52,405 nt of DNA from a virus. This document shows, one piece after another, positions 4,351 through 52,405 of this stretch. The translations under genes and the position numbers were made by a program. The stretch covers positions 1 through 52,405 of IMG/VR virus record IMGVR_UViG_3300021440_000028; one strand, given 5' to 3'. Each line of letters opens with the position of its first letter. Position 1 is the first letter of the stretch. The notes beneath the pieces are model-generated. The model searched no databases and was not told where the DNA came from. It saw only the letters and a list, made by a program, of their open reading frames with translations.

Positions 4351-6785
4351 CGACAGACATCGCAACGCTGGCGCTGGCGGTAGAAACCTCCGGCGTCAAG
4401 CAGGGCGCCAAAGCACTGGACGAACTCACCGACGCTGGCGCGACGGCCGAGAAGTCGGCGCGCAAGTTGTCCGGCGCGTGGCAAGCCCTCATGGCCGACA
4501 CATCGTCCATCAGCGGCGGCATCGGTCAGCTGGTGGCGCTCCAGCAGCAGAGCAACGCCATGCAGGCGCAGATGCTCACCCTTGCCCACGCAACCAAGCA
4601 AGTGGCCGCCGCCGAAACAGAGGCAGCAGTTGTCCGCGAGCGTGTGGTCACCCGGACCAAGACTGCCGCCAAGGAGACGGCCGACCTGGGAGCCGCCACC
4701 AAGCTGACCGCCTTCCAGACGCAGCAGCTCAGCTACCAGCTCAACGACTTCTTCGTGCAGGTCGCCAGCGGTGGCAGCCCGCTGACCGCGCTGGTGCAGC
4801 AGGGCTCGCAGCTCAACGGCACCTTCGGCGGCGTGGGCGGCACGATCAGCGCCATCACCAGCCTGATCACGCCGTTCCGGCTGGCCATCGGTGGCGCGGC
4901 AGGCGTCGTGGCTGCGCTGGGACTGGCCTACAGCCGGGGCAGTGACGAGCAGGATGCGTTCGCCAAGTCGATCATCCTGACGGGCAACGCAGCCGGCGTG
5001 ACAGTTGGCCAGCTCAACGAGATGGCGAAGGCTGTCGCGGGTGGCATCGGCACGCAGGCCAGGGCGGCCGAGGTGCTGGCGCAGATGGCCGGCTCCGGGC
5101 AGATCGCCGGCGCGCACCTTCAGGCCCTCACCGATGCCGCGCTGCGCTTCGAGCGGGCAGGTGGCCAGGCCGTCGAGGACACCGTGAAGCAGTTCGCGGC
5201 GCTGGGCAAGAACCCGGTGCAGGCCGCCGTGCAGCTCAACGAGGCGACCAACTTCCTCACGCGCTCGCTGTACGACCAGATCAAGGCCCTGGACTCGCAG
5301 GGCAAGTCGGCAGAGGCGGCTGCGGTCGCCCAGCAGGCCTACGCCCAGACGATCGCATCGCGTGCGTCCGACCTGGAAGGTCGGCTGGGTCTGCTGGAGC
5401 GCGGGTGGAAATCGGTCGGCGAGGCTGCTGCTTTCGCGTGGGACCGCATGCTCAACATCGGCCGGCCCGGCACGTTGCAGGAGCAATTGGCCGCAGCCGA
5501 GCAGCAGCTCGCCGCCGCCGGATCTCCCAGGGCCGGGTCGAACCCGCTCCAAGGCGATGCCCGACGCCAGGCCATCAAGCAGCGCATCTCCGACTTGCAG
5601 ATGCAGATCTACATGGAAGGAGAGGCCGCCGCCGCGCAGCAGGCATCCGCCGAGGGCGTCAAGAAGTACATCGCCGAGCAGAGCAAGGCGAAGCAGGCCG
5701 GCATCAGCGAGTACCAGCGCGAAGCCGATGCACTGCGCGAGCGCATGGCGCTGGTCGGCATGAACTCCGAAGCCGACAAGGTGGCGACCGAGATCACGCT
5801 CGGCAAGTACGGCAAGCTGACGCCCGGCCAGGCCGCCGAGCTGCAGGCGCTGGCCGCCGAGATCGACCGCCGGCAGAAGGTGGTCGACCTGGAAAAGGAG
5901 CAGGCGAAGGCTAGGCAGGACCAGTCGAAGCTGGCGTCCGATGCGCTGATGAAGTCTTTCGCCGAGACCGACAAGCTGCGCGACAAGAACACCGCGATGC
6001 GCGAGGAGATCGAACTCATCGGGCAGGACGAGAACGCCAAGGCGGCGATTGAGCGCGCCCGAGTCAGCAGCGCGCGGGCCATCCTGGAAGAGCGGCAGGC
6101 CCTGCTGGCGGTCACCGAGGCCAACGAGACCGAGCGGGCCATCCTGCAGCAGCAGATCGACCTGCTGCGCGAGCGCGAGGAACTGATCACCCGCCGGCAG
6201 GACCTGAAGAACTTCTACGAGCCCGCCAAAGACCTGCCGAAGGACGCCGCTAGTCAGACCTACACCGACGTGCGCGACGCGCTGGCCCGCGCCTTCCAGG
6301 ACACGAAGAACCCGGTCAAGGCGTTCGCCGAAGGTCTGGGCAACGCCATCTTCAGCCGCGTGACCAGCCGGCTGGCTGATGCGCTGGCGACGCAGCTTGT
6401 CGGCACCAGCGGCAACGGCGGGCTGTTCGGCTCGCTGCTGAGCGCGGCCGGCAACCTCCTGAGCGGCGGCGTGCCGTCCGGCGGCACCACCGGCGACTTC
6501 GCGCGCTTCGACCGCAGCCTGCCGATGGCCACGGGCACGAACTACGTGCCCTATGACGGGCTGAAGGCGACGCTGCACGAGGGCGAGGCGGTGCTGCCGA
6601 AGCGGTACAACCCGGCGGCCGGTGGCAGCCCGACAGGCGGCTCGCGTGTGGTCCTGAACTACGCGCCGAACGTGCGCATCGACAGCCGCACCGACCAGGC
6701 CCAGGTGCATGCGCTGGTGGCACAGGCGAACGCTGAAGGACAGCGCCAGATGATGGAAGAACTCCACCGGATGGGGGTCGCATGA
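4347..6785 (+). CDS. Tail tape measure protein
   Basis: The 812-residue product begins MTTDIATLALAVETSGVKQG, a usual start for siphophage tape measure proteins. It holds a long, mostly helical body with coiled-coil stretches (about 400-650), a short hydrophobic segment near residues 185-205 (LAIGGAAGVVAALGLAYS), and a C-terminal segment GTNYVPYDGLKATLHEGEAV typical of the protein's end. It sets tail length and is ejected during DNA delivery. No peptidoglycan-cleaving domain is visible. It overlaps both neighbours by 4 nt. Confidence 0.9.
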   Translation: MTTDIATLALAVETSGVKQGAKALDELTDAGATAEKSARKLSGAWQALMADTSSISGGIGQLVALQQQSNAMQAQMLTLAHATKQVAAAETEAAVVRERVVTRTKTAAKETADLGAATKLTAFQTQQLSYQLNDFFVQVASGGSPLTALVQQGSQLNGTFGGVGGTISAITSLITPFRLAIGGAAGVVAALGLAYSRGSDEQDAFAKSIILTGNAAGVTVGQLNEMAKAVAGGIGTQARAAEVLAQMAGSGQIAGAHLQALTDAALRFERAGGQAVEDTVKQFAALGKNPVQAAVQLNEATNFLTRSLYDQIKALDSQGKSAEAAAVAQQAYAQTIASRASDLEGRLGLLERGWKSVGEAAAFAWDRMLNIGRPGTLQEQLAAAEQQLAAAGSPRAGSNPLQGDARRQAIKQRISDLQMQIYMEGEAAAAQQASAEGVKKYIAEQSKAKQAGISEYQREADALRERMALVGMNSEADKVATEITLGKYGKLTPGQAAELQALAAEIDRRQKVVDLEKEQAKARQDQSKLASDALMKSFAETDKLRDKNTAMREEIELIGQDENAKAAIERARVSSARAILEERQALLAVTEANETERAILQQQIDLLREREELITRRQDLKNFYEPAKDLPKDAASQTYTDVRDALARAFQDTKNPVKAFAEGLGNAIFSRVTSRLADALATQLVGTSGNGGLFGSLLSAAGNLLSGGVPSGGTTGDFARFDRSLPMATGTNYVPYDGLKATLHEGEAVLPKRYNPAAGGSPTGGSRVVLNYAPNVRIDSRTDQAQVHALVAQANAEGQRQMMEELHRMGVA

Positions 6786-7939
6786 GCATCATCACGCCAT
6801 CCGACACCGCGCTGGCCTACCTGGCCGAGTTGACCATCGGCCAGCAGCGCTTCGACATCAGCGAGCAGAGCGACAGCACCGGCCACACCGCGACGCGGCT
6901 GGGCGGCCCGCCGCGGTGGACTGCGGCGCTGCGCACGCTGGATGCGCTGGAGCCGGCCGTCGCAGCGCTGTGGAAGGCCATCGCGGTCCAGCTGCGCGGC
7001 CGGGTCAACCACTTGGCGCTCTACGACGTGGCGCAACCGCAGCCCCGCGGCACGGCGCGCGGCTCCATCACGCTGGCGTCGACCGCGGCGGCCGGCGCTG
7101 TGTCGCTGGCCCTGGCTGGCTGCATGCCGTCGAACCAGCTGTTCACCTACCACCAGACGCTGGACAACGCGGCATGGTCGAAGGTCGGCGCGACGATCAC
7201 GGCCAACGGCCTGACCGCTCCGGACGGCTCGGCGACGGGCGACACGCTGGTCGAGGACACCAGCACCGGCGGACACTACATCGCCAGGTCGGTGTCCGTC
7301 GTGTCGGGAAACTTCTACACGCTGAGCGCCTATGTCAAGGCGGGCGTCGGAACTCGCTATGCGCGTCTTTTGCTGCCGGCGTCGTCTTTCGGCGGCAATA
7401 AAGGGATCGTCGTCAACCTGTCGACCGGTGCGATCCTGAGTAACACAGGTGGCGTCGCGGCGGCGTCCACCGATGCCGGCAACGGATGGTGGAGGATTTC
7501 TGCTGGCGCAACGGCGACGGCAACGACCTCCACGTTTCCTCAGATTGGAAGCCAGGCAACCACTTCGTTTGCTGCAAGTCACACCGGAGACGGCGTCAGT
7601 TCCATCGGCATCTGGGGCGTGCAGCTGGAGATCGGCGCGCTGACCGACTACCAGGGCAACGCGACGCTCCTGGCCGGCGACATGCTGCAGGTCAGCACCG
7701 GCGTCGGCTCGCACCTGTGCATGGTCACCGCGAACGCGACAGCCGACGGTTCCGGCGCCATGACGGTCAGCATCGAGCCGCCTCTGCGCAAGCAGTTCAC
7801 CAGCAGCACCGCGGTCGCCTGGGACAAGCCGCTCGGCCACTTCAAGCAGCGGCCCGACGCAGTGAACTGGTCTGGCGTGGCTGGCGGCACCGGCGCGGGC
7901 GGCTTCGCCTTCGACCTGATTGAGGACTGGAGCGCCTGA
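6782..7939 (+). CDS. Distal tail/minor tail protein with inserted carbohydrate-binding-like domain
   Basis: The 385-residue product is the first tail-tip gene after the tape measure. Residues 1-114 and about 292-385 resemble a compact distal tail protein; the join would read ...LAGC / ATLLAGDMLQVSTG. Between them, about residues 116-291 form a beta-rich jelly-roll-like module with W131 (DNAAWSKVG), GWWRISAG and GIWGVQLEIGALTDYQ, hallmarks of phage CBM-like modules. The inserted DNA has AT-richer patches than its flanks, hinting at recent gain. The module probably binds host surface glycans. Confidence 0.75.
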   Translation: MSIITPSDTALAYLAELTIGQQRFDISEQSDSTGHTATRLGGPPRWTAALRTLDALEPAVAALWKAIAVQLRGRVNHLALYDVAQPQPRGTARGSITLASTAAAGAVSLALAGCMPSNQLFTYHQTLDNAAWSKVGATITANGLTAPDGSATGDTLVEDTSTGGHYIARSVSVVSGNFYTLSAYVKAGVGTRYARLLLPASSFGGNKGIVVNLSTGAILSNTGGVAAASTDAGNGWWRISAGATATATTSTFPQIGSQATTSFAASHTGDGVSSIGIWGVQLEIGALTDYQGNATLLAGDMLQVSTGVGSHLCMVTANATADGSGAMTVSIEPPLRKQFTSSTAVAWDKPLGHFKQRPDAVNWSGVAGGTGAGGFAFDLIEDWSA

Positions 7940-8535
7940 TGCTGACGCTGGACAGCAGCGCGCAGGCGCAGATCGAGGCGAACGTCCGCGGCGTGCAGTG
8001 GCTGGTGTCGCTGGACTTCGCCGGCGGACTGGTGCGCTACACGACGAACGCCGTCGATATCGACTCGGGCGGCAACACCTGGTCTGGCTTCGGCTCGCTG
8101 GTCAGCGTGGAAGGCGTGCGCGAGTCGGAAGACGGCTCACCGGGCGACGTGACGCTCGGCCTGGCACTGACCAGCACCGCGATGCTGGCCGCGGCGATTG
8201 GCAACGTCGAGAACTACCGCAACCGGGCTGTTCGCATGTACCTGCAGCTGATCGGCCCCGACTTCCAGCCTGTCGGCGCCGCGGTGGCGCGCTGGGCCGG
8301 CTACATGAGCAAGGTACGCATCCGCCGCAGCACCAGCAAGGACGGCAGCAGCAGCGGGCGCATCGAGATGATCTGCACCCGCGCCGGCGCCAACCGGTCA
8401 CGCGCGGCGACGGGCCTGCGCCACACGCACGCGCAGCACGTGGTCCGTTTCCCTGGTGACAACGGCTTCGAGTACGTGCAGACGCTGATCGACACGCCGG
8501 CCGTCTGGCTGACAAAGCGCTTCCAGCAGAAGTGA
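7939..8535 (+). CDS. Tail tip protein (GTA gp13/DUF2163-like position)
   Basis: The 198-residue product starts at the base where the previous stop ends (TGATG). The N-terminus reads VQWLVSLDFAGGLVRYTTN, then GGNTWSGFGSLVSVEGVRESED, the opening strand pattern of tail hub-associated proteins. The gene order minor tail / this gene / cysteine protease-like / host-specificity protein matches GTA gp12-gp15 and lambda L-K-J type tips, so a role in baseplate assembly is inferred. Confidence 0.7.
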   Translation: MLTLDSSAQAQIEANVRGVQWLVSLDFAGGLVRYTTNAVDIDSGGNTWSGFGSLVSVEGVRESEDGSPGDVTLGLALTSTAMLAAAIGNVENYRNRAVRMYLQLIGPDFQPVGAAVARWAGYMSKVRIRRSTSKDGSSSGRIEMICTRAGANRSRAATGLRHTHAQHVVRFPGDNGFEYVQTLIDTPAVWLTKRFQQK

Positions 8536-8537
8536 AC

Positions 8538-8948
8538 ATGGCGCGCTCTATCGCATCCCGGCTGGCCGAGTACCTAGCCGGCGGCCATCGCTTTGACTGG
8601 TCCGACAGCAACTGCGCGCAGTTCGCCTCCGGCTGGGTCCGTGCGGTCGAAGGCCGGGCAGTCGCTGCGCCGTCGCTGCGCGACTTGGCGCATTCGCGCC
8701 GCGTGCTGGCCAGGCTGGGCGGCACCCTGCGCGCTGCCGTGACCGCCGAGCTGGCGCGCGATCCTGTGCCGCCTTCCATGGCGCGGCCCGGCGACGTGGT
8801 GCTGGTCGAGCGCGACGGCGGCCAGACGTTGGGTCTGTGCGCCGGCCAGACAGCTGCAGTCCTGACAGCGGCCGGCGTCTCCAATCTCCCCATGCAGGCG
8901 GCTTCGGCGGCCTGGCACATCGAGCCCGCAGCATGCGCAACCGCCTGA
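8538..8948 (+). CDS. NlpC/P60-like tail tip protein (DUF6950 family)
   Basis: The roughly 136-residue product has the motif SDSNCAQFASGWV near residue 27, placing a cysteine where NlpC/P60-type enzymes have their nucleophile. It also has MARPGDVVLVERDGGQTLGLC around residue 85 and AWHIEP at the end, matching DUF6950. It is the gp14/K-like member of the tail tip set and may trim or open peptidoglycan during entry. A GTG at 8532, overlapping the previous stop, is an alternative start. I would not count it as the lysis enzyme. Confidence 0.7.
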   Translation: MARSIASRLAEYLAGGHRFDWSDSNCAQFASGWVRAVEGRAVAAPSLRDLAHSRRVLARLGGTLRAAVTAELARDPVPPSMARPGDVVLVERDGGQTLGLCAGQTAAVLTAAGVSNLPMQAASAAWHIEPAACATA

Positions 8949-11824
8949 CCGCCATCGCCACCGCCTGCGCGCTGCTGGCCCTGCCGGCGGCGGTACAGGC
9001 CGACCCCATCTCGCTGATCGCCGCCGGGTCGGCAGCCGGCTTCACGGGCACCGCGGCGCTGGTCGCCGGCGCGATCGCCACCTATGGCGGCTACGTGCTG
9101 CTGGCTGCCAACATCTACGGCGGCATCGACGCCCGCCGGCGCGCCAAGAACGCGCAGCGCGACGCCACCCGCGCGTACAACGCCAGCGTCACCGATCGCA
9201 GCGTGACCGTGCCGCAAGGCACGCCACCCTGGCGCGTCGTCTACGGCGAGTGCATCACCGGCGGCGCCGTGGTGGCGATGTTCACCACGGACAAGACGAC
9301 CGCGGCATCCAGCGGCGGCGGCACCACAACGAAGCCGGACGGCCTGAAGCACCTGGTGATCCTGATGGCCTCGCACGAGGTCGAGGCGCTGGGCGAGTGC
9401 TTCATCGACGGCGTCAGCCTCGGCGCGCTGGACGCCGACGGCTACGCCACGGCCAGCGACTGGACCACGAACAGCGACAAGAAGCTGGTCACCGTCACCA
9501 TCACCGGCGGCTCGCTGACCGTGACCGCGCCGGCGACGTCGATCGTCAGCGCAGTCAGCAGCGGGTCGGATGAGTCGAACGGATCCTGGAGCGTTGACAG
9601 AACCGTCACGATTGGCGGCGGCGGCACCTTGCTGACCGTCACCGATGGGCTGGCCGAGGCCGGCGCCGTGACCGTGGTCTACGAGACCGCGCTCAACCCG
9701 GGCGTCATCCGTGTGCAGAAGCATCTGGGCACCGACAGCCAGACCGTCGACACCTACCTGAACGGCATCAAGCCGACCGAGTGGGACAGCAGCCATCGGC
9801 TGCGCGGCTGCGCCTACCTGGTCGTCACCCTGGATCTGGAGGACTCGCGATTCCAGGGTGGACCGCCGAATCTCACCTGCCGCGTCAAGGGCCGCAAGCT
9901 GTACGACCCGCGCAAGGACAGCACGAACGGCGGCACCGGCGCGCACCGCTACGCCGACCCGACCACCTGGGAATGGAGCGACAACCCAGCCCTGTGCACG
10001 CGCGACTGGATCGTCGGCGAGTACGGCATGGCCAGCGACAACGCCGACGTCGTCGACAGCTTCACCATCGCGGCAGCCAACGCCTGCGACGTGAGCATCA
10101 CGACCGACATCGGCGGCACGACGGCCGCCGATCGCACCTACCGCTGCAACGGCGTTGCCACGACCGAGGAATCGCGCGAGGCAGTGCTCGACAAGCTGGC
10201 CGACAGCATGGCCGGCTTTGCGATCTACGGCGCGCAGTGGCAGATCCTGGCCGGCGCCTGGACGCCGCCGGTGATGGATCTGACCGACGACGACCTAGAC
10301 GGCCAGATCGAGGTGCTGCAGGCCGGCGCGGGAATCGACGAGCTGGTCAATGGCGTGCGCGGAACCTACATCGGCGCCGACAGCGCCAGCCCGACAGACT
10401 TCGAGCCGTACCAGAACGCTACGTTCGTGACCGCCGACGGCGAGCCGCTGTGGCAGGACGTGGCGCTTCCGTTCACGAACAGCAAGCCGCACTGCGCCAA
10501 CATCGCGCGCATCCTTGTCGAGCGCGGCCGGAATAGCCAGGTCATCCAGTACCCGGCCAAGCTGCGCGCGTGGCCGCTACAGGTCGGCGACCGCGTGACC
10601 GTCACCAGCGCCGAATACGGCATCACGACGCCGAAGACCTACCGCGTCACCGACTGGCAGTTCGGCTTGTCCGCGCCGGTCACGCTGGCGCTGCAGGAAG
10701 ACGCGGCTGACGCCTACGACCTGGTCGATGCGGTCGAGGCCGATCCGACGCCCAACACCGACCTGCCGCCGCCGTGGCTGGTCGAGACCATCGCGCTGGC
10801 CGATCCTCAGAGCGGCACCGCGCACCTGGTGCGGGCAACTGACGGCACGATCACAACCCGCGTCTGGGTGTCGTGGTCCGCGCTGACCGGGGCCTACCTG
10901 CAGGACGGCCAGGGCATGGTCGTGATCCGCTGGCGCCGCGTCGGGACAGACGCGGAGTGGCGCGAGGTCGATGCCGACGCGGGCGACTCCGGCGCGTACC
11001 TGGTCGGCGCCCAGGACGGCGACCGGATCGTGGTCGAGGCCTGGGCGGCGAACAGCGCCGGCTTCCGCGGCCAGTCGGACACAAAGACGCACACGGTCAT
11101 CGGCAAGTCGGCGCCGCCGGCGGACGTGGCCGCCTTCACGGCGATTGAGTGGCCGCAAGGCGGCCGGGCGTACTACTGGGACATGCCGGCCGAACCGGAC
11201 CTCGACGGCTTCGTCGCCCGCTACTGCGACGCAACGCTCGACTACCCGTGGGGCCTGATGACGCCGCTGTGGGAGGCCGGCCGGCTGGACCGCAGCCGCC
11301 ACGCGCAGACGCCGGCCGATGGCGAGTGGGTCATCTCCATCAAGGCCCGCGACACCAGCGGTCACGAGAGCGCGAACGACAAGCGCATGACCATCCTGCT
11401 GGACGCTGGCGGCTTCGGCTCGCCCATCGCATCGATCGACGCCGGCGCGCTTGGCTGGCCTGGCACGAAGACCAACTGCGACGTCCTCGGCTACTACCTG
11501 ATCGAGATCGGCGCACTGACCTGGGACACGATCCCGACGACCTGGGACGCCTGGCTCGACTGGGATGGCGCCTCGGCCGGGTCGCTGGTCTATCAGCACA
11601 CGACGATCGACGTCGGCTCCTCGGCGGCCCGCCGCATCCGCGCTGGCCATGTCGCCGACGGCACCACCACCGTCGAGTACCAGAGCAGCACCGATGGCGT
11701 CAGCTACTCGGCATGGGCGGCGATCCCGTCCAGCACGGTCACCTTCCGCTACCTCCGCGTCCGCTGGACCGTGGCCGGCTCACTGCCGACCCTGTACCGC
11801 GCACAGGTCCGCATCTACTCCTGA
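8933..11824 (+). CDS. Tail tip host-specificity protein (J-like central fibre)
   Basis: The 963-residue product is the large tail-tip protein expected at this place. The chosen ATG overlaps the previous gene by 16 nt. Its first 24 residues (MRNRLTAIATACALLALPAA, then VQA) look like a cleavable signal peptide, followed by a second hydrophobic segment near residues 40-62. The phage tail motif VTVPQGTPPWRVVYGECITGG begins near residue 87. The middle carries hub-like domains (CTRDWIVGEYGM, QYPAKLRAWPLQVGDRVTV). FnIII-like repeats follow at about 620-800, and a C-terminal host-recognition region ends near residue 963. Confidence 0.85.
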   Translation: MRNRLTAIATACALLALPAAVQADPISLIAAGSAAGFTGTAALVAGAIATYGGYVLLAANIYGGIDARRRAKNAQRDATRAYNASVTDRSVTVPQGTPPWRVVYGECITGGAVVAMFTTDKTTAASSGGGTTTKPDGLKHLVILMASHEVEALGECFIDGVSLGALDADGYATASDWTTNSDKKLVTVTITGGSLTVTAPATSIVSAVSSGSDESNGSWSVDRTVTIGGGGTLLTVTDGLAEAGAVTVVYETALNPGVIRVQKHLGTDSQTVDTYLNGIKPTEWDSSHRLRGCAYLVVTLDLEDSRFQGGPPNLTCRVKGRKLYDPRKDSTNGGTGAHRYADPTTWEWSDNPALCTRDWIVGEYGMASDNADVVDSFTIAAANACDVSITTDIGGTTAADRTYRCNGVATTEESREAVLDKLADSMAGFAIYGAQWQILAGAWTPPVMDLTDDDLDGQIEVLQAGAGIDELVNGVRGTYIGADSASPTDFEPYQNATFVTADGEPLWQDVALPFTNSKPHCANIARILVERGRNSQVIQYPAKLRAWPLQVGDRVTVTSAEYGITTPKTYRVTDWQFGLSAPVTLALQEDAADAYDLVDAVEADPTPNTDLPPPWLVETIALADPQSGTAHLVRATDGTITTRVWVSWSALTGAYLQDGQGMVVIRWRRVGTDAEWREVDADAGDSGAYLVGAQDGDRIVVEAWAANSAGFRGQSDTKTHTVIGKSAPPADVAAFTAIEWPQGGRAYYWDMPAEPDLDGFVARYCDATLDYPWGLMTPLWEAGRLDRSRHAQTPADGEWVISIKARDTSGHESANDKRMTILLDAGGFGSPIASIDAGALGWPGTKTNCDVLGYYLIEIGALTWDTIPTTWDAWLDWDGASAGSLVYQHTTIDVGSSAARRIRAGHVADGTTTVEYQSSTDGVSYSAWAAIPSSTVTFRYLRVRWTVAGSLPTLYRAQVRIYS

Positions 11825-31926: not shown

Positions 31927-32001
31927 CGCGTGATGCGCACAACAGACCACATGAGCGGCTGTCCCTTGTCGGGGGGAAGCCACCAACCACAGGAGAAGTG
32001 C

Positions 32002-40010: not shown

Positions 40011-40523
40011 ATGGCCAGAGCGCAAGCCCAGCCGGCGCAGCAGAAGTCCAAGGGCGGACGCCCAACCAAGTTCGACGCCAAGCTGGTGAAGCAGGCCCGC
40101 GAGCTGGCGCTGCTGGGCCTGACCGATGCCGAGATGGCAAAGGTGTTCGACGTCGCGAACTCGACGTTCAAGGAGTGGAAGGCAGCGCATCCGGCGTTCG
40201 CGCGGGCGCTGATCGACGGCAAAACCATCGCCGACGCCCAGGTCGCCGCCAGCCTGCACCACCGCGCCGTCGGCTACAGCCACCCCGAGACGGTCATCAA
40301 CGCCTGGCAGGGGACGATCATCAAGACGCGGGTGATCCGACACTACCCGCCAGATACCCAGGCGGCCCTAAAGTGGCTGCACAACCGGCACCCGAGCCGC
40401 TGGCGTGCCCAGCCCGAGCCGATGGATGACGACGAGGCGCCGCCGCCGGTCAAGGTCGTGATCGAAGTCAAGGACGCCCGCAAGCGCCCCGACGATGCCG
40501 AGCCTGAACCGGCCACAGGCTGA
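40011..40523 (+). CDS. Terminase small subunit
   Basis: The 170-residue product has GGRPTKFDAKLVKQARELAL, LGLTDAEMAKVFDVANSTFK, EWKAAHPAFARALIDGKTIA, then AAALKWLHNRHPSRWRAQPE-like end (QAALKWLHNRHPSRWR). This matches the helix-turn-helix and oligomerisation parts of small terminases. GGGAGAAG precedes the ATG. It overlaps the large subunit by 29 nt. Confidence 0.8.
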   Translation: MARAQAQPAQQKSKGGRPTKFDAKLVKQARELALLGLTDAEMAKVFDVANSTFKEWKAAHPAFARALIDGKTIADAQVAASLHHRAVGYSHPETVINAWQGTIIKTRVIRHYPPDTQAALKWLHNRHPSRWRAQPEPMDDDEAPPPVKVVIEVKDARKRPDDAEPEPATG

Positions 40524-43205: not shown

Positions 43206-44304
43206 CCGGCTGCAGGATGATGTCGTCTCGCACGCCGTCGACCTGCAGCAATTCGGAAATCACCTGGTCGCGAGGATCATCGCGCAGCTCAATCGGACCG
43301 ACGCAGAGCTGATCGGCCGGCTGCAGGCAGCCCTGGATGGGCTGCCGGCGACGGCCACAAGCGTGGAGAGGATCGGCGCGCTGCTGCAGAGCGTGCGGAC
43401 GCTGAACCTGACGGCCTACCAGGCGATCGAGCGCGAGCTGACCGCCGAGCTGCGCGCGCTGGCCGACTACGAGGCCGGGCACCAGCTGGAGCTGTTCCGC
43501 GCCGAGATCCCGCCGCAGATCGTCACCCGCGTGGGCGTGGCGGCGGTCAACGTCGAGCAGGTGTTCGCCGCGGCCATGTCCCGGCCGTTCCAGGGCCGGC
43601 TGCTGCGCGAGTGGGCGGCGGACATCGGCGAGGCCCGGATGGTGCGCATTCGCGACGCGGTGCGGCAGGGCTTCGTGCAGAACGAGAGCATCGGCCAGAT
43701 CGTGCAGCGCATCCGCGGCACGCGGGCCAGGGCCTACAAGGACGGCCTGCTGGAGATCGACCGGCGCGGCGCCGAGGCGGTGGTGCGGACGGCAGTCAGC
43801 CACACGGCCGGCTTCGTGCGCGATCGGTTCATGGAGCAGAACGGCGACCTCGTGAAGGCCGAGGTCTGGACATCGACGCTGGACAGCCGCACCAGCGAGG
43901 GATGCCGGATCCGCGACGGCCTGCAGTACACGCCAGGCGATCACAAGCCGATCGGGCACAAGGTGCCATGGCTCGGCGGGCCGGGCCGGCTGCACTGGTG
44001 CTGTCGCAGCACGGCGGTGCCGGTGGTGAAGTCCTGGCGCGAGCTGGGCGTGCCGATCGATGAGATGCCGCCCGGCGAGCGGGCCAGCATGGATGGCCAG
44101 GTGCCCGCCGACACGACGTTCGCGGCCTGGATCAAGCGGCAGAGCGCCGCGCGGCAGGATCAGGTGCTGGGCGCCACGCGCGGCCGGCTGATGCGTTCCG
44201 GCGGGATGGATCTGCCGGACTTCTACGACAACAAGGGGACGATGCTCACCCTGGACGAGCTGCGCCAGCGCGACGCGGCGGCATTCAGGCGGGCAGGGCT
44301 GTAG
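43189..44304 (+). CDS. Mu F-like minor head protein
   Basis: The 371-residue product (GTG start) has a helical first half and the Mu F/SPP1 gp7 domain in its second half: VVRTAVSHTAGFVRDRFMEQ, LVKAEVWTSTLDSRTSEGCR, then GPGRLHWCCRSTAVPV. These proteins sit inside the head near the portal and may be injected with DNA. Full length. Confidence 0.85.
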   Translation: MATLNDRLQDDVVSHAVDLQQFGNHLVARIIAQLNRTDAELIGRLQAALDGLPATATSVERIGALLQSVRTLNLTAYQAIERELTAELRALADYEAGHQLELFRAEIPPQIVTRVGVAAVNVEQVFAAAMSRPFQGRLLREWAADIGEARMVRIRDAVRQGFVQNESIGQIVQRIRGTRARAYKDGLLEIDRRGAEAVVRTAVSHTAGFVRDRFMEQNGDLVKAEVWTSTLDSRTSEGCRIRDGLQYTPGDHKPIGHKVPWLGGPGRLHWCCRSTAVPVVKSWRELGVPIDEMPPGERASMDGQVPADTTFAAWIKRQSAARQDQVLGATRGRLMRSGGMDLPDFYDNKGTMLTLDELRQRDAAAFRRAGL

Positions 44305-44551: not shown

Positions 44552-44685
44552 TCTGCAAGCCCCGCATCAAGCGCGACGGCCGCGGCTGGGCATGTGCAGG
44601 CCTTGGCAAGGAAGGCAACGGCAGGACGCCCCGCGCAGCGTTTCTCGACTGGCTGAACGAGGCCAGCTTCTTCCCGTACATCTGA
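44548..44685 (+). CDS. 45-residue conserved small protein
   Basis: From a GTG overlapping the Zn-finger gene stop (GTGA): VICKPRIKRDGRGWACAGLG, KEGNGRTPRAAFLDWLNEAS, FFPYI. The W-x-C-x-G-x-G...G-x-T-P-x-x-A-F-x-x-W pattern is seen in short phage proteins and seems designed to bind a partner. Too short to classify. Confidence 0.55.
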   Translation: MICKPRIKRDGRGWACAGLGKEGNGRTPRAAFLDWLNEASFFPYI

Positions 44686-44823
44686 AGCCCGCCGGACTGG
44701 CAGCGACGGGCCCAGCGCCAGCCGGCGAGCACCCCCGGCTGTCGAGACTGCCAGACCGGCCAACCAGGGCGCCGCGCTTGCCGGACGCGCACTCTCCAGC
44801 CCGACATCAGACGCACTACTCCG

Positions 44824-44856
44824 AAGGCCCCGCGGCGCAAGTCACGGGGCCTTTCT
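44824..44856 (+). terminator. Intercistronic terminator-like hairpin
   Basis: AAGGCCCCG (44824-44832) pairs with CGGGGCCTT (44845-44853), followed by TCTC. It is in the 281-nt gap before the scaffold gene; a promoter for the capsid block downstream is not evident. Confidence 0.5.
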
Positions 44857-44966
44857 CATGCCCGCGCCGCGGATGCGGCAGGGCATCCAGGCCGGACGGC
44901 CACCAATCGCGGCGGATGCCGCACCCACCCGCTGGCGGACGCCGGCGCAACCTTGACCACACCACT

Positions 44967-45740
44967 ATGCCCTTCAAGTACGACGCCCAAGGCCAGATCG
45001 TCACCGCCGACCACAACGGCATCAAGCTCCCCGTGTTCGTCCACCCGGACGGCAAGGAGGCGCCGTTTGATGCTGACGGCACGATCAACTCGATCAACGC
45101 CCGCGCCGAGCAGTCGCGCCGCGTTGAAGGCGAGAACAAGACGCTCAAGGAGCAACTTGCCGCGTTCGATGGTCTGGACGCCGTGAAGGCCCGCGAAGCC
45201 ATCGAGAAGATGAGCACCGTCGATCTGTCGAAGATGGTGCACGCAGGCGAAGTGGAGAAGGTCAAGGGCGAGATCGCCAAGACCTACGAGGCGAAGCTGG
45301 CCGCCAAGGACCAGGAGATGGCGCAGAAAGACGCGGCCATTTGGAAGCGCACGATGGACGCCGCCTTCAACGGCTCCAAGTTCATCGGCGAGAAGGTCGC
45401 CATCCCCGCGCAGTTCCTGCGCTCCACCTACGCCCAGCACTTCAAGCCGGGCGAGGACGGCGAGCCGGTCGGCTACTTTGCTGACGGTCGACCGATCATG
45501 TCCTCCAGCACGCCGACCAAGTTCGCGTCCTTTGATGAGGCGATGGAATCGATCATCGCCTCAGACCCTCACAAGGCGTCGATCCTGAAGGGCAGCGGCG
45601 CGTCCGGTGGTGGCGCGACCGGCGGTGGCAGCGGCGGTGGCAACGGCAAGACCCAGATCTCGCGCGCAGCCTGGCAGGCCCTGAGCCCGCTGGAGCAGCG
45701 CGCCAAGGCGACCGACCCCAAGGTCGAGATCGTCGACTGA
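44967..45740 (+). CDS. Scaffolding protein
   Basis: The 257-residue product has a short beta-rich start (MPFKYDAQGQIVTADHNGIK, FVHPDGKEAPFDADGTINSI), a central coiled coil (about 45-130, EQSRRVEGENKTLKEQLAAF, EVEKVKGEIAKTYEAKLAAK) and a C-terminal part with Gly-rich linker and basic end (NGKTQISRAAWQALSPLEQR). It sits directly before the P22-like capsid gene. The scaffold assembles the prohead and leaves. No cleavage site is evident. Confidence 0.75.
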   Translation: MPFKYDAQGQIVTADHNGIKLPVFVHPDGKEAPFDADGTINSINARAEQSRRVEGENKTLKEQLAAFDGLDAVKAREAIEKMSTVDLSKMVHAGEVEKVKGEIAKTYEAKLAAKDQEMAQKDAAIWKRTMDAAFNGSKFIGEKVAIPAQFLRSTYAQHFKPGEDGEPVGYFADGRPIMSSSTPTKFASFDEAMESIIASDPHKASILKGSGASGGGATGGGSGGGNGKTQISRAAWQALSPLEQRAKATDPKVEIVD

Positions 45741-45840: not shown

Positions 45841-47141
45841 ATGGCAAACCTCCGCACTTCCCTCCGCACCGCTGCGCTGGCCTTCGTGGCCGCCGTCGCG
45901 GCCTTCAACCCGATCGCCACCATGGCCTCCGCCACCGCGCGGCTGGCCGACTGGCTGCTGCAACCGGTGCCCCAGGGCGGCGTCCTGGCCGCCAACACGC
46001 TGACCGGCATGATCAGCACCATCTACACGGCGCTCGACGTCGTGTCGCGCGAGCTGATCGGCTTCATCCCGTTCGTGTCGCGTGACGCCACCAGCGCCAG
46101 CGGTGCGGTCGGCCAGACCGTGCGCTCGCCGATCGCTCCCGCGATCAGCCTGGAAGACGTCAGCCCGGGCGCGACCCCGGCCGACTCGGGCGACCAGACC
46201 ATCGGCTATGCCGACGTGACGATCACCCGCAGCAAGGCCGCGCCGATCCGCTGGACCGGTGAGGAGCAGCTGTCGGTCAGCCAGTTCGGCCAATACAACG
46301 TGATTTTGGCCGGTCAGTTCCAGCAGGCCTTCCGCGCGCTGGCCAACCTGGTGGAGAGCGACATCGCGCTGGCAGCCAAGGCCGCCGCGTCGCGCGCCTA
46401 CGGCACGGCCGGCACCACGCCGTTCGCCACCGCGGCCGATCTGTCGGACCTGTCGCAGATCAACAAGATCCTGGACGACAACGGCGCCCCCGCGTCGGGC
46501 CGCGCGATGGTGCTGAACTCGGCCTCGCGCGCCGTGCTGGAAGGCAAGCACAGCGAGCTGTTCCGCGTGAACGAGGCGGGTGACGCTGCCGCCATGCTGC
46601 GCGAGCGCCAGATGCGTCGCCTGATGGGCTTCAGCATGGGCTACTCGGCCGGCCTGGTGACGCACACCAAGGGCACGGGCGCCAGCTACCTGGTGAACAA
46701 CGGCAGCGGCATCGCCATCGGCGGCACGACCATCGCGGCCGACACCGGCTCTGGCACCGTCCTGGCCGGCGACGTGGTGACCTTCGCGGCCGACTCGGCC
46801 AACAAGTACGTGGTCGGCACCGCGCTGTCCGGCGGTTCGTTCTCGCTGAACAAGCCGGGCGCCCTGGTGGCTATCCCCGACAACAACGCCATCACCGTGG
46901 GCAACAACTACACGCCCAACATCGCGTTCACGCAGAACGCGATCGTGCTGGCAGCCCGGGTGCCGGCCATGCCGGAAGGCGGCGACTCGGCCGACGACGT
47001 GATGCTGAGACCGATCCAGTCTCGGGCCTGACCTTCCAGGTCGCCATGTACCGCCAGTACCGCCGCGTGAAGATCGAGGTGTCGCTGGCCTGGGGCGTGG
47101 GCACGCCGAAATCGGAACACATCGCCCTGTTGCTGGGCTGA
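45841..47141 (+). CDS. P22-like major capsid protein, reading frame broken near 47008
   Basis: The predicted product is about 433 residues, as for P22 coat (430). The frame from the ATG at 45841 gives 389 good residues ([20 protein letters not shown] ... [10 protein letters not shown]) and then turns to RPIQSRA and a stop at 47029-47031. From 47010 the -1 frame continues the coat C-terminus, [43 protein letters not shown], to 47141. One missing base between 47007 and 47010 (for example AAG read as AG) restores it. No slippery site is present, so it is a sequencing/assembly error or a real mutation. Confidence 0.85.
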
Positions 47142-47215: not shown

Positions 47216-47512
47216 ATGGCAGGAATCAGCAAGGCCGAGCGCGAGGCGCGCGCGGCAGCCGCGGCAGCGGCAGAGCAGGGCGGCGAGCAGCCGCAGGACA
47301 CCGGCGACGCCAGCAACGCCGGCGCCGACGAGGCGGCCGCGCTGCAGGCCAAGGCGATCGCCGAGGCGGAAACTGCAGCCGCGGCAGCGGCCCAGGCCGT
47401 GCAGCTCGTGCCCATGGTGCGCAGCGCCAGCCAGTACCCCGCGCCGCACACCGCCGACGTGCACCCCGACGAGGTCGGCAACTTCGCCGCCGGCGGCTGG
47501 CAGCCCGCCTGA
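47216..47512 (+). CDS. Ala-rich small virion-block protein
   Basis: A 98-residue protein: a highly helical, Ala/Glu-rich first part (MAGISKAEREARAAAAAAAE...), and a conserved end HTADVHPDEVGNFAAGGWQP. AGGAG lies before the ATG. The end is found in capsid-proximal small proteins of related phages; it may be a head decoration or linker. Boxed by hairpins on both sides. Confidence 0.55.
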   Translation: MAGISKAEREARAAAAAAAEQGGEQPQDTGDASNAGADEAAALQAKAIAEAETAAAAAAQAVQLVPMVRSASQYPAPHTADVHPDEVGNFAAGGWQPA

Positions 47513-47591: not shown

Positions 47592-48674
47592 ATGCCCCAG
47601 ACCATCTACGGCGGCCAGACCGGCGCCGAAACACTGCGCGCCGGCAGCGTGCTGACCGTGACGCTGGTCGTCGGCACGGGCGCCACCGTCTTCCGCTCGA
47701 TCGGCGGCGCAGCGTTCACGGGCGAGCCGGCACTGACCGCGACCACGACCTACGGCCCCTACGAGAACGACCAGACGTTCAAGGTCTGCCCGTTTTCCGG
47801 GGCGACCGTCACCATGGATGTCTCCGCCAGCCCTGGCGCGCAGCCGAACGACGCCCAGGCGGCCGCGCTTGCTGCCCTGGTGTCAGGGGCTGGGAGTGCC
47901 GTCGTCACCGGACTGGACACGCTGGCCAGCCGCGTCCAGCTTGCACACTGGCCTTGCGGCGACAGCGCGACCACACTGGGTGATGCAGTGGGCAAGGGGC
48001 CGTCGATCGCAGTGGCCGGCACCACCACCGGCGCGCTCGGAACGGCGGGCTGGTTCACCCATGATGCCGCGGGAAACACGCTGCAACTGAAGGCCATCCC
48101 GTACATCGACGGCCTGATCAACATGACGACGGACGGCGCCATCCTGATCGGATGCGATCTGTTCCTCACAGGCTGGCCCAGCGCGGGCACCGAGTACCTG
48201 TGGGCACTGCACCGGTCTGCCGAAAGCACCACGGGCGGGCTGGCCCTCACCATCAGCAACAGCGCAGCCGGCCGGTTCTCCGTGCAGTACAAACCCAACG
48301 GCGGCAGTCAGAACGAAGTAACCGGGTTCGCCCCCGGCACCTACCTGAACGTGCGCAACTCTCTGCTGGTGGAGGCCATCGTCAACACGGCGCGCGCCGA
48401 ACTCACCACGCACTTCTTCCACAACGGCCGCCTGGAGCGGTCCAACGTGTGGCCGCTGGCCACGCCCCCAGCCGCTGATGCGGCCTGCGGCCTCAATTTC
48501 TCCGGCTACGGTGCCACGCCCACTGCCAAGGTGGGCAGCGGCGGCAGCACCGGCGCCCGCGTGCAGAACCTGCTGGTGGGTCGCCACAACGGCAAAGACC
48601 GCAACCTGGCCGGCCGGCTCGCCCGCGACATGTACGCCAATGCCGCGCTGCCTTCCTGGCTCACCCGCATCTGA
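47592..48674 (+). CDS. Virion protein with lectin-like (LamG/concanavalin-like) domain
   Basis: The 360-residue product starts with a small beta domain (MPQTIYGGQTGAETLRAGSV, VTLVVGTGATVFRSIGGAAF; 1-80), then a linker, then a jelly-roll domain (about 110-345): VQLAHWPCGDSATTLGDAVG, LTGWPSAGTEYLWALHRSAE, GGLALTISNSAAGRFSVQYK, LLVEAIVNTARAELTTHFFH, NGRLERSNVW, RVQNLLVGRHN. This is the two-sheet lectin pattern. It sits right after the capsid block and before the phosphatase, so likely a head or tail surface adhesin. Confidence 0.6.
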   Translation: MPQTIYGGQTGAETLRAGSVLTVTLVVGTGATVFRSIGGAAFTGEPALTATTTYGPYENDQTFKVCPFSGATVTMDVSASPGAQPNDAQAAALAALVSGAGSAVVTGLDTLASRVQLAHWPCGDSATTLGDAVGKGPSIAVAGTTTGALGTAGWFTHDAAGNTLQLKAIPYIDGLINMTTDGAILIGCDLFLTGWPSAGTEYLWALHRSAESTTGGLALTISNSAAGRFSVQYKPNGGSQNEVTGFAPGTYLNVRNSLLVEAIVNTARAELTTHFFHNGRLERSNVWPLATPPAADAACGLNFSGYGATPTAKVGSGGSTGARVQNLLVGRHNGKDRNLAGRLARDMYANAALPSWLTRI

Positions 48675-48683
48675 GGATCAATC

Positions 48684-50069
48684 ATGGCAATCAGCTTCTG
48701 GTGGCTCGGCCACGCAACCACTGCCACCGCCCGCGTACTGGTGCGTGGCACCACCAACGGCGCAGTGACTGTCAGCGGCAGTTTTGGCAGCGTGTCGGCC
48801 ACGCTGGACACCACAGTCAATGACGGCGTGGTGGTGCTCAACGTCAACGGCCTGGCGCCCAACACCAGCTACCCCATCACCATCACCGACGCCTCGGGCG
48901 CATCCGAAGTGGGCGCGCTCAAGACCATGCCCAGCATCGGCGGCAAGGTGGCCTTCATCTCCTGCGACGAGCGGGTGCGCTCGCTGACGGACCTCGCGCA
49001 GAACATCATTGCGGCCGGCGCGAATGCGGTGTGCCACGAGGGCGACTACGTGTATGTCGCGGCCAACCTCACCAACTACAACGGCGAGACCAGCCCGGCC
49101 ATCAACACTGCCAGCACCCCGGCCAATTACGCCAACCACTGGCGCCAGTGCAAGCGCAAAGCCGACAAGCGGTTGCTTGAAACGATGGTCCCGCACTACT
49201 ACATGTTCGACGACCACGAGTTCGGCGGCGACAACTGGGACCATTCGGTCAAGCTGGCGCAGACCACGCTCAACGTCGCCAGCGGCAGCACCGACACGGG
49301 CGGCCTCGGGCTCAACGGCAGCGCGGAGGTGGATGCCTCGTGGTGGGCCGCACGTCAGGCTGCTGCCTACTACATGGCTGGCAACCCGGCGTCCGAATAC
49401 ACGGCTGACAAGCCGCAGGGTGCCCAGGCTGGCACTGCAGCCAGCCAGTACCCGGCTGCTGGATACCGTTTCATGGTGGGAGACATCGAGGTGTTTCACC
49501 CCGATCTGTTCACCTCGCGGTCATTCCTGGCCGCCACGGACAACGCCAGCAAGACCATGCTGGGCGCGGCGCAGAAAGCCTGGCTGAAGGCGGCCCTGCT
49601 TGCCTCCACCGCCACCTTCAAGGTGATCGCCAGCGGCAAGACCACGTACAAGGCCACTGCCGGCGGCACCGGCGATGACTGGACGGTCTATAGCACCGAG
49701 CGCGACGAACTGATCGACTACATCAATGCCCAGGGCATCAAGGGCGTGGTGTGGATGTGTGGTGATGCACACGGAGCCTTCGTCAGCTACGACCCGGCCA
49801 AGGGCCACATTGCGGTCTGTGCCAACCCGGCCGGCGTCGATCACATCGTGCAGGCCACTGGCTACCAGCCGTTCACGGTGTGGAAGGAAAGCGCGTACAC
49901 ACCCAACGCCACCACCGACCCGCGCAAGGCTGGCCTGTTCGGTCTTTGCGAAGTGGTCACCGCGGCCAGCGGCTTGAAGACCCTGCTGGTGCGCCTCATC
50001 GACCAGTACGGCGTCGAGCTGTGGCGCGGTCAGGTCGACCAGGGCACCAACGTGCTGCGCACGGCCTGA
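48684..50069 (+). CDS. PhoD-like metallophosphatase in virion gene block
   Basis: The 461-residue product has an N-terminal FnIII-like part (about 5-82, ATTATARVLVRG, LNVNGLAPNTSYPITITDAS) as in PhoD. A metallophosphatase domain follows with the PhoD motif set: SCDER (C94, D95), CHEGDYVYVA (117-126), MFDDHEFGGDNWD (174-186) and WMCGDAHGAFVSY (D361, H363). All metal ligands appear kept. No signal peptide. PhoD enzymes hydrolyse phosphodiesters/monoesters. In this position it may be carried on the particle and act on host surface polymers, or supply phosphate. Confidence 0.8.
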   Translation: MAISFWWLGHATTATARVLVRGTTNGAVTVSGSFGSVSATLDTTVNDGVVVLNVNGLAPNTSYPITITDASGASEVGALKTMPSIGGKVAFISCDERVRSLTDLAQNIIAAGANAVCHEGDYVYVAANLTNYNGETSPAINTASTPANYANHWRQCKRKADKRLLETMVPHYYMFDDHEFGGDNWDHSVKLAQTTLNVASGSTDTGGLGLNGSAEVDASWWAARQAAAYYMAGNPASEYTADKPQGAQAGTAASQYPAAGYRFMVGDIEVFHPDLFTSRSFLAATDNASKTMLGAAQKAWLKAALLASTATFKVIASGKTTYKATAGGTGDDWTVYSTERDELIDYINAQGIKGVVWMCGDAHGAFVSYDPAKGHIAVCANPAGVDHIVQATGYQPFTVWKESAYTPNATTDPRKAGLFGLCEVVTAASGLKTLLVRLIDQYGVELWRGQVDQGTNVLRTA

Positions 50070-50183
50070 TCAGCCATGTCCGTCCAACCACTGATCCGCC
50101 CGAGCGCCAGACCGCACGATGCAAATGGCCAGGATGCCGCCGCAGCTCCACAGCGCAACGGCGGCCAGCAGGGCAATGCACAT
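50070..50183 (-). CDS. 37-residue membrane peptide, antisense to late operon
   Basis: MCIALLAAVALWSCGGILAI followed by CIVRSGARADQWLDGHG: one transmembrane helix and a short charged tail. GGGAG precedes the ATG at a good distance on the minus strand. It fills the 223-nt gap between two late genes and its stop abuts the PhoD-like gene's stop. The plus-strand frame here (50076-50243) looks low-complexity. It needs its own promoter, which I cannot point to. Confidence 0.45.
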   Translation of the reverse strand: MCIALLAAVALWSCGGILAICIVRSGARADQWLDGHG

Positions 50184-50292
50184 GTCGGTCTCCCAGGGTC
50201 AGACGCCGCAGCATGGGCACGCCCCATGTCAGCTGTGTGACGTGACCGCAGCCTGATCCCATCCCCTGCCGGTGCACCACTGAAAGCACGCC

Positions 50293-50700
50293 ATGACCGT
50301 CCAGAACTCCACCGCCGTGCGCAACGCCCAGGGCGACGCATGGGAGACCGCCATCGGCACCAGCGCGAAGCTGCGCATCTACACCGGCGCCCAGCCGGCG
50401 AACTGCGCAGCGTCGCGCACCGGCACGCTGCTGGTCGAGTACAGCCTGGCCAGCGACTGGTGCGCGGCTGCCAGCTCGGGCGCGAAGGTGTTCAACAGCC
50501 TGCCGCTCAGCACCACGGCAGCGGGCACCGGCACGGCCGGCCACTACGCCATCATGGACAGCGCCGGCACGACCTGCCACGAGCAGGGCAGCGTGACGGC
50601 CACGGGCGGCGGTGGCGACCTGACGATCGACAACACCTCGATCGCCAGCGGGCAGACGGTCAGTGTCACCGGCTTCACCAAGACCTGGCCGGGGGCCTGA
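50293..50700 (+). CDS. Conserved virion-block protein
   Basis: The 135-residue product: MTVQNSTAVRNAQGDAWETA, IGTSAKLRIYTGAQPANCAA, YSLASDWCAAASSGAKVFNS, ... GQTVSVTGFTKTWPG. The 'STAVRNA-x-x-D-x-x-E-T-A-I-G-T-S' start is a widespread phage protein found in structural clusters, and its beta-rich fold suits a decoration or tail accessory role. Function not established. Confidence 0.6.
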   Translation: MTVQNSTAVRNAQGDAWETAIGTSAKLRIYTGAQPANCAASRTGTLLVEYSLASDWCAAASSGAKVFNSLPLSTTAAGTGTAGHYAIMDSAGTTCHEQGSVTATGGGGDLTIDNTSIASGQTVSVTGFTKTWPGA

Positions 50701-50702
50701 GC

Positions 50703-51560
50703 ATGATCATCCTGTCGTCCACCAGCGACAAGCTGCGAGTCGTCACCGACAGCACGGCCAACACCGATGTACACGCCAGCTGGGCTGACTTGACCGTCGG
50801 CACGGGCGCGACGACCGCGGACCGCAAGAACACGGCGATCGGCAGCGCGACGACCACCGATGTCGTCAGCTCGCCATCGTCCGGCGTCGTGCGCACGGTC
50901 AAGACCCTCCACATCCGCAACAAGCACGCGACGCTGGCACAGACGGTGACTGTCCAGCACACCGACGGCACGACTGCTGTCGAGCAGATCCAGATCAACC
51001 TGCCCGCCGGCTACGTGCTGCACTACGACGAAGGTGCGGGCTTCGAGGTTCAGGACGCCTACGGGCGAGGCCTCGCCAACTGGAGCGCCAACGGCAGCGG
51101 AGCTGCGGTAAACGCCCTGAATATGGTGGTGCTGACATCGGACGTCACGAACGCCAACGCGGTCGCCAACACCATGCAGGACATCACCGGGCTGGCGTTC
51201 AGCGTCACAGCCGGTGAGACCTATTACTTCCGCTTCATCATCGACTTCACGGCGGCAGCTCTGACCACCGGCTCGCGCTTCAGCATCTCGGGCCCGGGTG
51301 CACCAACGCGGCTGGCTTATCGCACTGTCGTTCCGTCTGCTGGCACCTCAGAGACACTGACGGTCGGCATTACCGCCTATGACTTGCCGGCCGCTGCCGT
51401 AGCGGCAACCCCCGCGTTGGCCGGCAACGTGGCCCAGGTCGAGGGGTTCATCACGCCGAGTGCATCCGGCAGCGTGATCGCGCGCTTTGCCTCCGAAGTC
51501 GCGGCCAGTGCCATCGTGGCCAAGGCTGGCAGCTTGTGCACGTGGGTGCGGGTGCTGTAA
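50703..51560 (+). CDS. Virion-block beta-rich protein
   Basis: The 285-residue product: MIILSSTSDKLRVVTDSTAN, TDVHASWADL, then RKNTAIGSATTTDVVSSPSS, VRTVKTLHIRNKHATLAQTV, and a later jelly-roll-like part VTNANAVANTMQDITGLAFS, ETYYFRFIIDFTAAALTTGS. It looks like a two-domain fibre or spike accessory. Located between two structural genes with 2-nt and 0-nt gaps. Confidence 0.6.
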   Translation: MIILSSTSDKLRVVTDSTANTDVHASWADLTVGTGATTADRKNTAIGSATTTDVVSSPSSGVVRTVKTLHIRNKHATLAQTVTVQHTDGTTAVEQIQINLPAGYVLHYDEGAGFEVQDAYGRGLANWSANGSGAAVNALNMVVLTSDVTNANAVANTMQDITGLAFSVTAGETYYFRFIIDFTAAALTTGSRFSISGPGAPTRLAYRTVVPSAGTSETLTVGITAYDLPAAAVAATPALAGNVAQVEGFITPSASGSVIARFASEVAASAIVAKAGSLCTWVRVL

Positions 51561-52283
51561 GTGGCCCGCGGCCTGTTCGCTTCTGAGGCGGTCGCGCAGG
51601 GGTGGTTTGCGCCCGAGGCGCTAGCGCTCGGGTGGTTTGACGAAGCGCTGATCGACGCCGGCAGCACTGCTGGAGCATCCGCAAGCGCTGCGCAGTTGCT
51701 CGCCGCTCCCGCGCAGGCGGCAACAGCTGCGGTGACGGCGCAGGCGCAGTCCTCGCAAGCACTCGCGGCACCATCGCAATCCGCAGCCGCTGGCGTCACA
51801 GCCACAGCAGCAGCATCCCAGACCCTGCCGGCGGCATCACAGTCGGCTGCGGCCGGTGTGAACGTCGCCGCCGCGGCTTCGCAGTCGGTGGCGGCTGTTG
51901 CGCAGGTGGCCGCCGCTTCGGTGGCGCCGGCCAGCGATCGGAACGCGCAGGCCGCGCAGAACCTGGCGGCGCCGGTGCAGTCAGCAACGGCGGCAGTCGT
52001 TATCGCTGCCGGCTCCATCGTCGTGATGGACCCGGCGATCAACGCGGCTGTCGCAGCGGTCCTGGTGGCCGCTTCGGCATCGCAGGCCCTGCAGGCTGTG
52101 ACGCAGTCGGCGACGGCTGCCGGCCCGAACACCGACGAGACCTACCCGCTGGCCGGCGACATCCAGGCCTACCCAGTCGGCGCCGCGCAGGCCTATCCGC
52201 TCAGCGCCGCGGCCGACTACCCGCTGGCTGGCCAAGCTCAGGCGCTGCCTCTGGCCGGCATCCGCCAGACCTACCCGATCTGA
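51561..52283 (+). CDS. Ala-rich repeat virion protein
   Basis: The 240-residue product (GTG start directly after the previous stop) has three parts. The start has FASEAVAQGWFAPEALALGW then FDEALID (two F-x-x-EA-x-A-x-GWF repeats). The middle (about 40-180) is an Ala/Ser/Gln/Val-rich repeat (AASQ, SAAAGV units). The end has five or six YPL-x-G-x-x-QA repeats (ETYPLAGDIQAYPVGAAQAY...TYPI). Repetitive, probably fibrous; could be a head or neck whisker. Next gene is the connector at position 15. Confidence 0.6.
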   Translation: MARGLFASEAVAQGWFAPEALALGWFDEALIDAGSTAGASASAAQLLAAPAQAATAAVTAQAQSSQALAAPSQSAAAGVTATAAASQTLPAASQSAAAGVNVAAAASQSVAAVAQVAAASVAPASDRNAQAAQNLAAPVQSATAAVVIAAGSIVVMDPAINAAVAAVLVAASASQALQAVTQSATAAGPNTDETYPLAGDIQAYPVGAAQAYPLSAAADYPLAGQAQALPLAGIRQTYPI

Positions 52284-52404
52284 GGCGACGACATGGCACT
52301 GATCACCGAAGACGGCACCGCGAAGGCAGACGCCGAGAGCTACTGCAGCGTCGCCGCAGCCGATGCGCACCACGAAGCTCGCGGCATGACCAACTGGGCC
52401 TCTC
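52279..52404. repeat. Terminal direct repeat, copy 2
   Basis: Exact copy of bases 1-126; the final base (52405, a) departs from base 127 (t). It marks circular closure of the assembly. Confidence 0.9.
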
Positions 52405-52405
52405 A
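52293..52405 (+). CDS. Partial copy of head-tail connector gene
   Basis: The first 37 codons of the gene at 15-527, repeated because the circle was opened within it. Not a second gene. Confidence 0.9.
   Translation, partial: MALITEDGTAKADAESYCSVAAADAHHEARGMTNWAS

Follow-up and report, generated by a model that had tools for sequence, protein, structure and literature searches.

A PhoD-family phosphodiesterase gene with a conserved partner in the virion gene block of a siphophage: a probable particle-borne surface hydrolase

RESULTS

The window, i.e., the whole stretch of 52,405 nucleotides analyzed here (virus record IMGVR_UViG_3300021440_000028), is a circular ~52.3-kb siphophage: the last 127 nt of the record (52279 to 52405) are identical to positions 1 to 127 except at the very last base, which indicates a circular assembly of that size. 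An integrase-like protein (38223 to 39143; Arm-DNA-bind_3 and Phage_int_M) encoded beside recombination genes suggests that the phage is probably temperate. Upstream of these genes lie a protein of 916 aa that contains an N6_N4 DNA methylase domain (31923 to 34673) and a MarR-like regulator (34670 to 35443).

The morphogenesis genes are codirectional up to position 47031, in the order terminase small subunit, terminase large subunit (40495 to 41778, plus strand, as for all other window genes in this paragraph; PF03237, 1e-29; phrog_2), portal (41793 to 43205; phrog_145, 2.7e-122), MuF-like head morphogenesis protein (43189 to 44304; phrog_241, 8.5e-149), head scaffolding protein (44592 to 45740; phrog_206, 1.6e-23), and P22-like major capsid protein (45841 to 47031; phrog_283, 3.9e-77; 67 related viral loci). 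A small postcapsid gene follows (47216 to 47512; phrog_1514, 5.7e-8; blastp match to L004, 1e-3), and small open reading frames (ORFs) stand at this position in many relatives, with weak homology. Next comes a 4.7-kb insert comprising a gene of no recognizable family, hereafter the partner gene (47592 to 48674, encoding P0002), the PhoD gene (48684 to 50069), a virion structural protein (50293 to 50700; phrog_3758, 9.4e-27, head and packaging), a protein that looks fiber-like and beta-rich by composition only (50703 to 51560; no PHROG match at 0.01), and an alanine-rich repetitive protein, a possible spacer or fiber without a significant family match (51561 to 52283). In translation, this last gene, the one adjoining the adaptor, displays repeats of AA-Q type and, at the C terminus, a Q-x-YPL repeat. 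Beyond the insert are the head-tail adaptor Ad1 (15 to 527; phrog_477, 2.3e-47), whose start is repeated at 52293 to 52405 (PF20557) and which is cut at the right end but complete at the left because the record ends overlap, then head closure Hc1 (679 to 1341; phrog_161, 5.8e-14), the tail tube protein (2283 to 3503; PF18906, 6.6e-20), and the tape measure protein (4347 to 6785; PF06791, 9.4e-59). From the capsid gene to the record end, no terminator-like site was found on the PhoD strand. The PhoD gene thus lies inside the virion structural block between capsid and connector genes, as an earlier sequence-only reading of this DNA had stated, its immediate neighbors being the partner gene, which that reading had missed, and the virion structural protein gene.

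The PhoD gene is an ORF of 461 aa with an ATG start, and its translation agrees with that given earlier. Residues 91 to 369 match the Pfam PhoD family (PF09423; 90.8 bits against a cutoff of 27; E = 1.2e-25), and phmmer relates the protein to Bacillus subtilis PhoD (2YEQ) at 1.7e-11. A chance ORF was ruled out by this homology and the conserved context, and a decayed gene by the open frame and the retained metal residues. The sequence-only reading had claimed that all PhoD metal motifs are present. The four that it quoted are indeed there, as ISC(94)DER, HEGD(121)YVY(124)V, D(176)D(177)HEFGGD(183)N(184), and GD(361)AH(363). Ligand mutations in B. subtilis PhoD have been made at C180, D207, D265, D266, N271, N272, and D436 (PMC4223295); the Cys and the four Asp residues have direct counterparts in the window protein, C94, D121, D176, D177, and D361. 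In place of the Asn-Asn pair it has D183-N184, preceded by two inserted residues, so that the claim is nearly, but not literally, true of the canonical set. Judging from spacing, Y124 and H363 probably occupy the expected Tyr and His positions. Altogether, the window PhoD and its three closest relatives retain the Cys, Asp, Tyr, Asp-Asp, Asp/Asn, and Asp-His residues.

Over its first ~85 residues, the protein looks similar to the Fn3-like domain found ahead of the catalytic region of PhoD and purple acid phosphatases, and the L070 relative (45% identical) matches Pur_ac_phosph_N weakly in this region (0.0013). Since the protein starts directly with this Fn3/PhoD_N-like domain and inspection of the sequence revealed no hydrophobic core near the start, we agree with the earlier reading that the window PhoD N terminus carries no signal peptide, as expected if the protein exits the cell on the particle. 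An AlphaFold model of the window PhoD predicted from one sequence was too poor to use (pLDDT, 35).

None of the 67 loci with a related capsid encodes a PhoD detectable by phmmer or motif. In most of these loci, at most a few hundred bases separate the capsid gene from the small gene and Ad1 that follow it, with no large insert, indicating that the window bears an insert of ~4.7 kb (47592 to 52283) at this slot. The closest relatives by packaging genes, L049 and L050 (terminase, 65%; portal, 53%; MuF, 56%), have in the slot a protein of 665 aa in which a GDSL/SGNH esterase domain is recognized at 0.0002, below the Pfam curated cutoff (11468 to 13465 in L050, between capsid and adaptor). L048 carries a Gp77-like fiber-tail adaptor (6.3e-6) and two fiber-like proteins, and several other relatives have unrelated ORFs or nothing there. 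The esterase in L049 and L050 and the fibers in L048 indicate that the slot accepts surface-interaction genes. By eye, similar Cys-rich proteins of ~285 aa encoded directly after the capsid gene in L007 (8558 to 9412) and L010 (11280 to 12146) look homing endonuclease-like, and a 231-aa ORF in the slot of L009 (11226 to 11918) looks methyltransferase-like. Related capsids also occur in phages of Gram-negative hosts (HK639 and Klebsiella and Caulobacter phages).

Viral scans with the window PhoD (P0001), with P0006, or with the partner P0002 as single sequences retrieved no relatives. An alignment seeded with the sole phage-record match, MW202489, and then scanned against viral contigs retrieved PhoD relatives in L070/L071 (45% identity) and L072 (35% over the core), bringing the close module-bearing phages to four with the window and MW202489. 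A plasmid search was negative, and a genome search yielded one weak Glycomyces match; at that sensitivity, the clade thus showed neither a bacterial nor a prophage copy.

In all four phages, the gene directly upstream of PhoD is homologous, as assessed by BLAST within this small set: P0002 matches the L070 protein P0008 (6.6e-32) and the L072 protein P0010 (8.7e-8), and the MW202489 protein P0005 matches P0010 (3.9e-50) and P0008 (1.8e-5), being linked to P0002 transitively. The PhoD proteins form two subgroups, the window with L070 and L072 with MW202489 (41%), and the partner family divides into the same two. The two genes are separated by 9, -1, 3, and 3 nt, and all four pairs sit within virion gene blocks, although those blocks differ in their packaging and head genes: the pair occupies the capsid-adaptor slot of the window, adjoins a P22-like head closure gene, Hc3, in L072, and comes after a T7-type head-tail connector in L070/L071 (PF12236, 1.8e-175 in L070) and between terminase and portal in MW202489. 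Such tight homologous pairs in four differing phages have the appearance of an exchangeable two-gene module, of which we found no earlier description in the literature searched on PhoD with virion or tail fiber. Directly upstream of the L072 pair, a GH5 cellulase-like protein (7524 to 8615; 2e-8) is another surface-enzyme candidate.

The partner P0002 has no Pfam match at an E value of 10, so that no recognized family could be assigned, and the partner profile had no match among PDB sequences. An AlphaFold model of the L070 homologue, built from a three-sequence alignment, was of low confidence (pLDDT, 40; pTM, 0.42). This model best resembles concanavalin-like sandwiches (Z up to 7.6, a value that can also stem from a common fold arrangement), including agrin/neurexin LamG/LNS domains, pentraxins, CBM40-type modules, and other lectin-like binding domains; Foldseek returned no match to it at E ≤ 0.001. 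We treat a lectin-like fold of the partner, a putative concanavalin/LamG-like sandwich, as a lead. In P0002 and P0010, the first ~80 residues make up a domain of their own, which bears a GPY motif and is a putative particle anchor. Among 6,010 ORFs, the best outside match of a profile built from these two sequences was a short protein of L053 (E = 0.0025; the next match being at 0.25) encoded between capsid and Ad1, which itself matches the N terminus of the L050 esterase protein (1.1e-16). This thin chain suggests that the P0002, L053, and L050 slot proteins may share a particle-anchoring domain. Single-sequence searches detected no homology between the P0002 anchor and the L050 protein, a three-sequence profile including both was discounted as circular, leaving the L053 match as the one that counts, and phage records held nothing convincing for the anchor family.

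A search with a cyanophage PhoD gathered 63 phage records, in which both virion-block and nonvirion contexts exist. Alleb gp39 is located between a capsid/collagen-like fiber region and the head-to-tail stopper, Phinky gp36 and Rowlf gp26 immediately precede the head-to-tail adaptor, and P1312 ORF22, which includes a CBM_4_9-like domain, follows the tape measure and a tail protein. On the other side, Jay2Jay gp121 (Streptomyces phage) lies among tRNA genes and A3Wally gp238 (Microbacterium phage) beside a 5'-nucleotidase and a dNMP kinase. The earlier statement that phosphate-scavenging genes normally sit among early or auxiliary genes therefore holds for the Jay2Jay and A3Wally types, but siting in the virion block recurs in several unrelated phages. 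The DDH metal motif reads SDT, SDN, or DNH in Alleb, Jay2Jay, and Phinky, so that some members of the wider family may have lost their catalytic activity or acquired a different one. The distant phage PhoD-like proteins in which an altered DDH motif (SDT, SDN, DNH) goes with a large N-terminal extension are those of L076 (10726 to 12678), L079 (12633 to 14585), and L084 (6137 to 8197), and they possibly have a different chemistry or no activity.

The PhoDs of YongM, Elbi, and Dfl-JY23 adjoin a capsid-fiber gene or its positional equivalent, in short clusters with DNA metabolism genes on the flanks. By liquid chromatography-tandem mass spectrometry of YongM, alkaline phosphatase D (5775..7658) ranked 7th of 32 proteins (score, 1132; coverage, 35%), the neighboring capsid fiber protein ranked 10th (coverage, 61%), and the cluster genes 4580..5233, 7738..8361, and 8358..9086 were detected too, while DNA polymerase and thymidylate kinase scored 19 (PMC8875764). 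The sample was amplified, concentrated phage, its purification not being detailed, and the authors classed the phosphatase under DNA anabolism (PMC8875764). The YongM protein is a distant relative of the window PhoD with a different architecture.

DISCUSSION

The window module is best read as a surface hydrolase borne by the virion, drawn from an unusual enzyme family and accompanied by a conserved partner. We propose that the PhoD protein is, with fair probability, a particle-borne surface phosphodiesterase acting with a binding partner, as the catalytic half of an exchangeable two-gene virion module. In this model, the partner would probably attach to the head or neck by its N-terminal domain and bind a host surface glycan by its sandwich domain, and the PhoD protein would assemble with it on the particle, making secretion unneeded. 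On host contact, the PhoD-type metal site (presumably Fe3+ and Ca2+) would cleave phosphodiesters or phosphomonoesters within a surface polymer, e.g., a glycerol phosphate-containing capsule, an O-antigen, or a teichoic acid-like chain, thus clearing the way to a secondary receptor. The particle-borne enzyme suggested by the sequence-only reading is supported by the gene context, the pairing in four phages, the slot contents of relatives, and the YongM mass spectrometry; its presence on the window particle, its assembly with the partner, its enzymatic activity, and its substrate are inferred. The Jay2Jay-type and A3Wally-type PhoDs outside virion blocks and the P1312 PhoD, for which no mass spectrometry coverage of particles was reported (PMC4569894), run counter to this reading, as do the distance of the YongM protein, the low confidence of the partner model, the weak link between the anchor and other slot proteins, and the small number of module members, four in the searches above.

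These same counterexamples, with A3Wally's gene beside nucleotide metabolism genes, fit a late-expressed auxiliary phosphatase or moron, placed in the late operon by chance and freeing phosphate from nucleotides or debris in the cell or lysate, off the particle, as might be expected of a family of phosphate-scavenging enzymes. We regard such a moron as rather unlikely given that four different phages conserve the gene, at virion-block positions, in close linkage to a partner that belongs to no recognizable enzyme family, that the slot in relatives holds fibers and an esterase, and that the YongM PhoD was detected in phage preparations. Moreover, characterized PhoDs act extracytoplasmically on teichoic acid or phospholipid, with Fe3+ and Ca2+ (PMC4223295), whereas the window protein has no export signal and would reach that compartment if particle-borne or freed by lysis.

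The protein could also be a PhoD-derived structural or adhesive head or neck component whose enzymatic activity is reduced or irrelevant, a reading that draws on the altered metal motifs of the more distant Alleb, Jay2Jay, and Phinky proteins; we consider it improbable for the window, because selection would not be expected to keep the metal residues that this PhoD and its three closest relatives have all kept. As for the target, the envelope phosphopolymer put forward earlier is plausible, teichoic acid being the presumed substrate of B. subtilis PhoD, but the lipid A-linked phosphates named alongside it found no specific support. An action on lipid A phosphates or other outer membrane phosphate groups at the adsorption site would suit the Gram-negative hosts of phages with related capsids, yet neither sequence nor context points to it and the characterized substrates of the family are teichoic acid and phospholipids (PMC4223295), and we hold it to be the most improbable of these explanations.

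PhoD genes of phages are usually taken for metabolic genes that serve phosphate scavenging. A broader proposal, which we advance tentatively and hold to be somewhat less probable than its converse, is that the PhoD-type enzymes of several unrelated phage lineages could form an unrecognized class of metal-dependent head or neck phosphodiesterase depolymerases, carried on an exchangeable binding partner (a separate gene or a fused domain) and targeting surface polymers with phosphate linkages. Should they indeed be surface enzymes borne on the particle, many annotations as auxiliary metabolic genes would have to be revised, and phages would have a new depolymerase class with phosphate-bond specificity.

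Compared with B. subtilis PhoD (2YEQ), whose metal site holds Fe3+ plus Ca2+ (PMC4223295), the window protein shares catalytic-domain homology, metal-site motifs, and an Fn3-like N-terminal domain, but it lacks a Tat/Sec signal, has Asp-Asn with two inserted residues in place of Asn-Asn at the second Ca site, and has its gene in a virion operon, next to that of a partner. The missing signal also sets it apart from exported PhoD enzymes in general, the signal peptide being typical of characterized members while lying outside the family model. With the proteins of YongM (Nostoc), Elbi (Anabaena), and Dfl-JY23 (Dolichospermum), it has in common the PhoD catalytic domain; their genes stand beside a capsid-fiber gene or its positional equivalent, and the YongM protein was detected in phage preparations. 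They differ by an identity of ~25%, a different phage type, and a fused C-terminal region of ~250 aa in place of a separate upstream partner. The Microbacterium phage proteins of Alleb, Phinky, and Rowlf, annotated as phosphoesterase or purple acid phosphatase, have a similar head-to-tail gene position but an extra N-terminal region of ~230 to 280 aa and a partly altered DDH motif. The ORF22 phosphodiesterase of Thermobifida phage P1312 combines a PhoD domain with a carbohydrate-binding CBM_4_9 domain, in a fused 1,096-aa protein whose SC cysteine is unconserved in the alignment, and teichoic acid hydrolysis was proposed by its authors as one of its functions (PMC4569894). Finally, virion-associated SGNH/GDSL esterases (an SGNH protein fills the same slot in L049 and L050) and glycerophosphodiesterase-domain tail proteins resemble the proposed role of the window PhoD as particle-borne hydrolases of polymer decorations or teichoic acid, whereas the catalytic fold and metal dependence of PhoD are unrelated to theirs.
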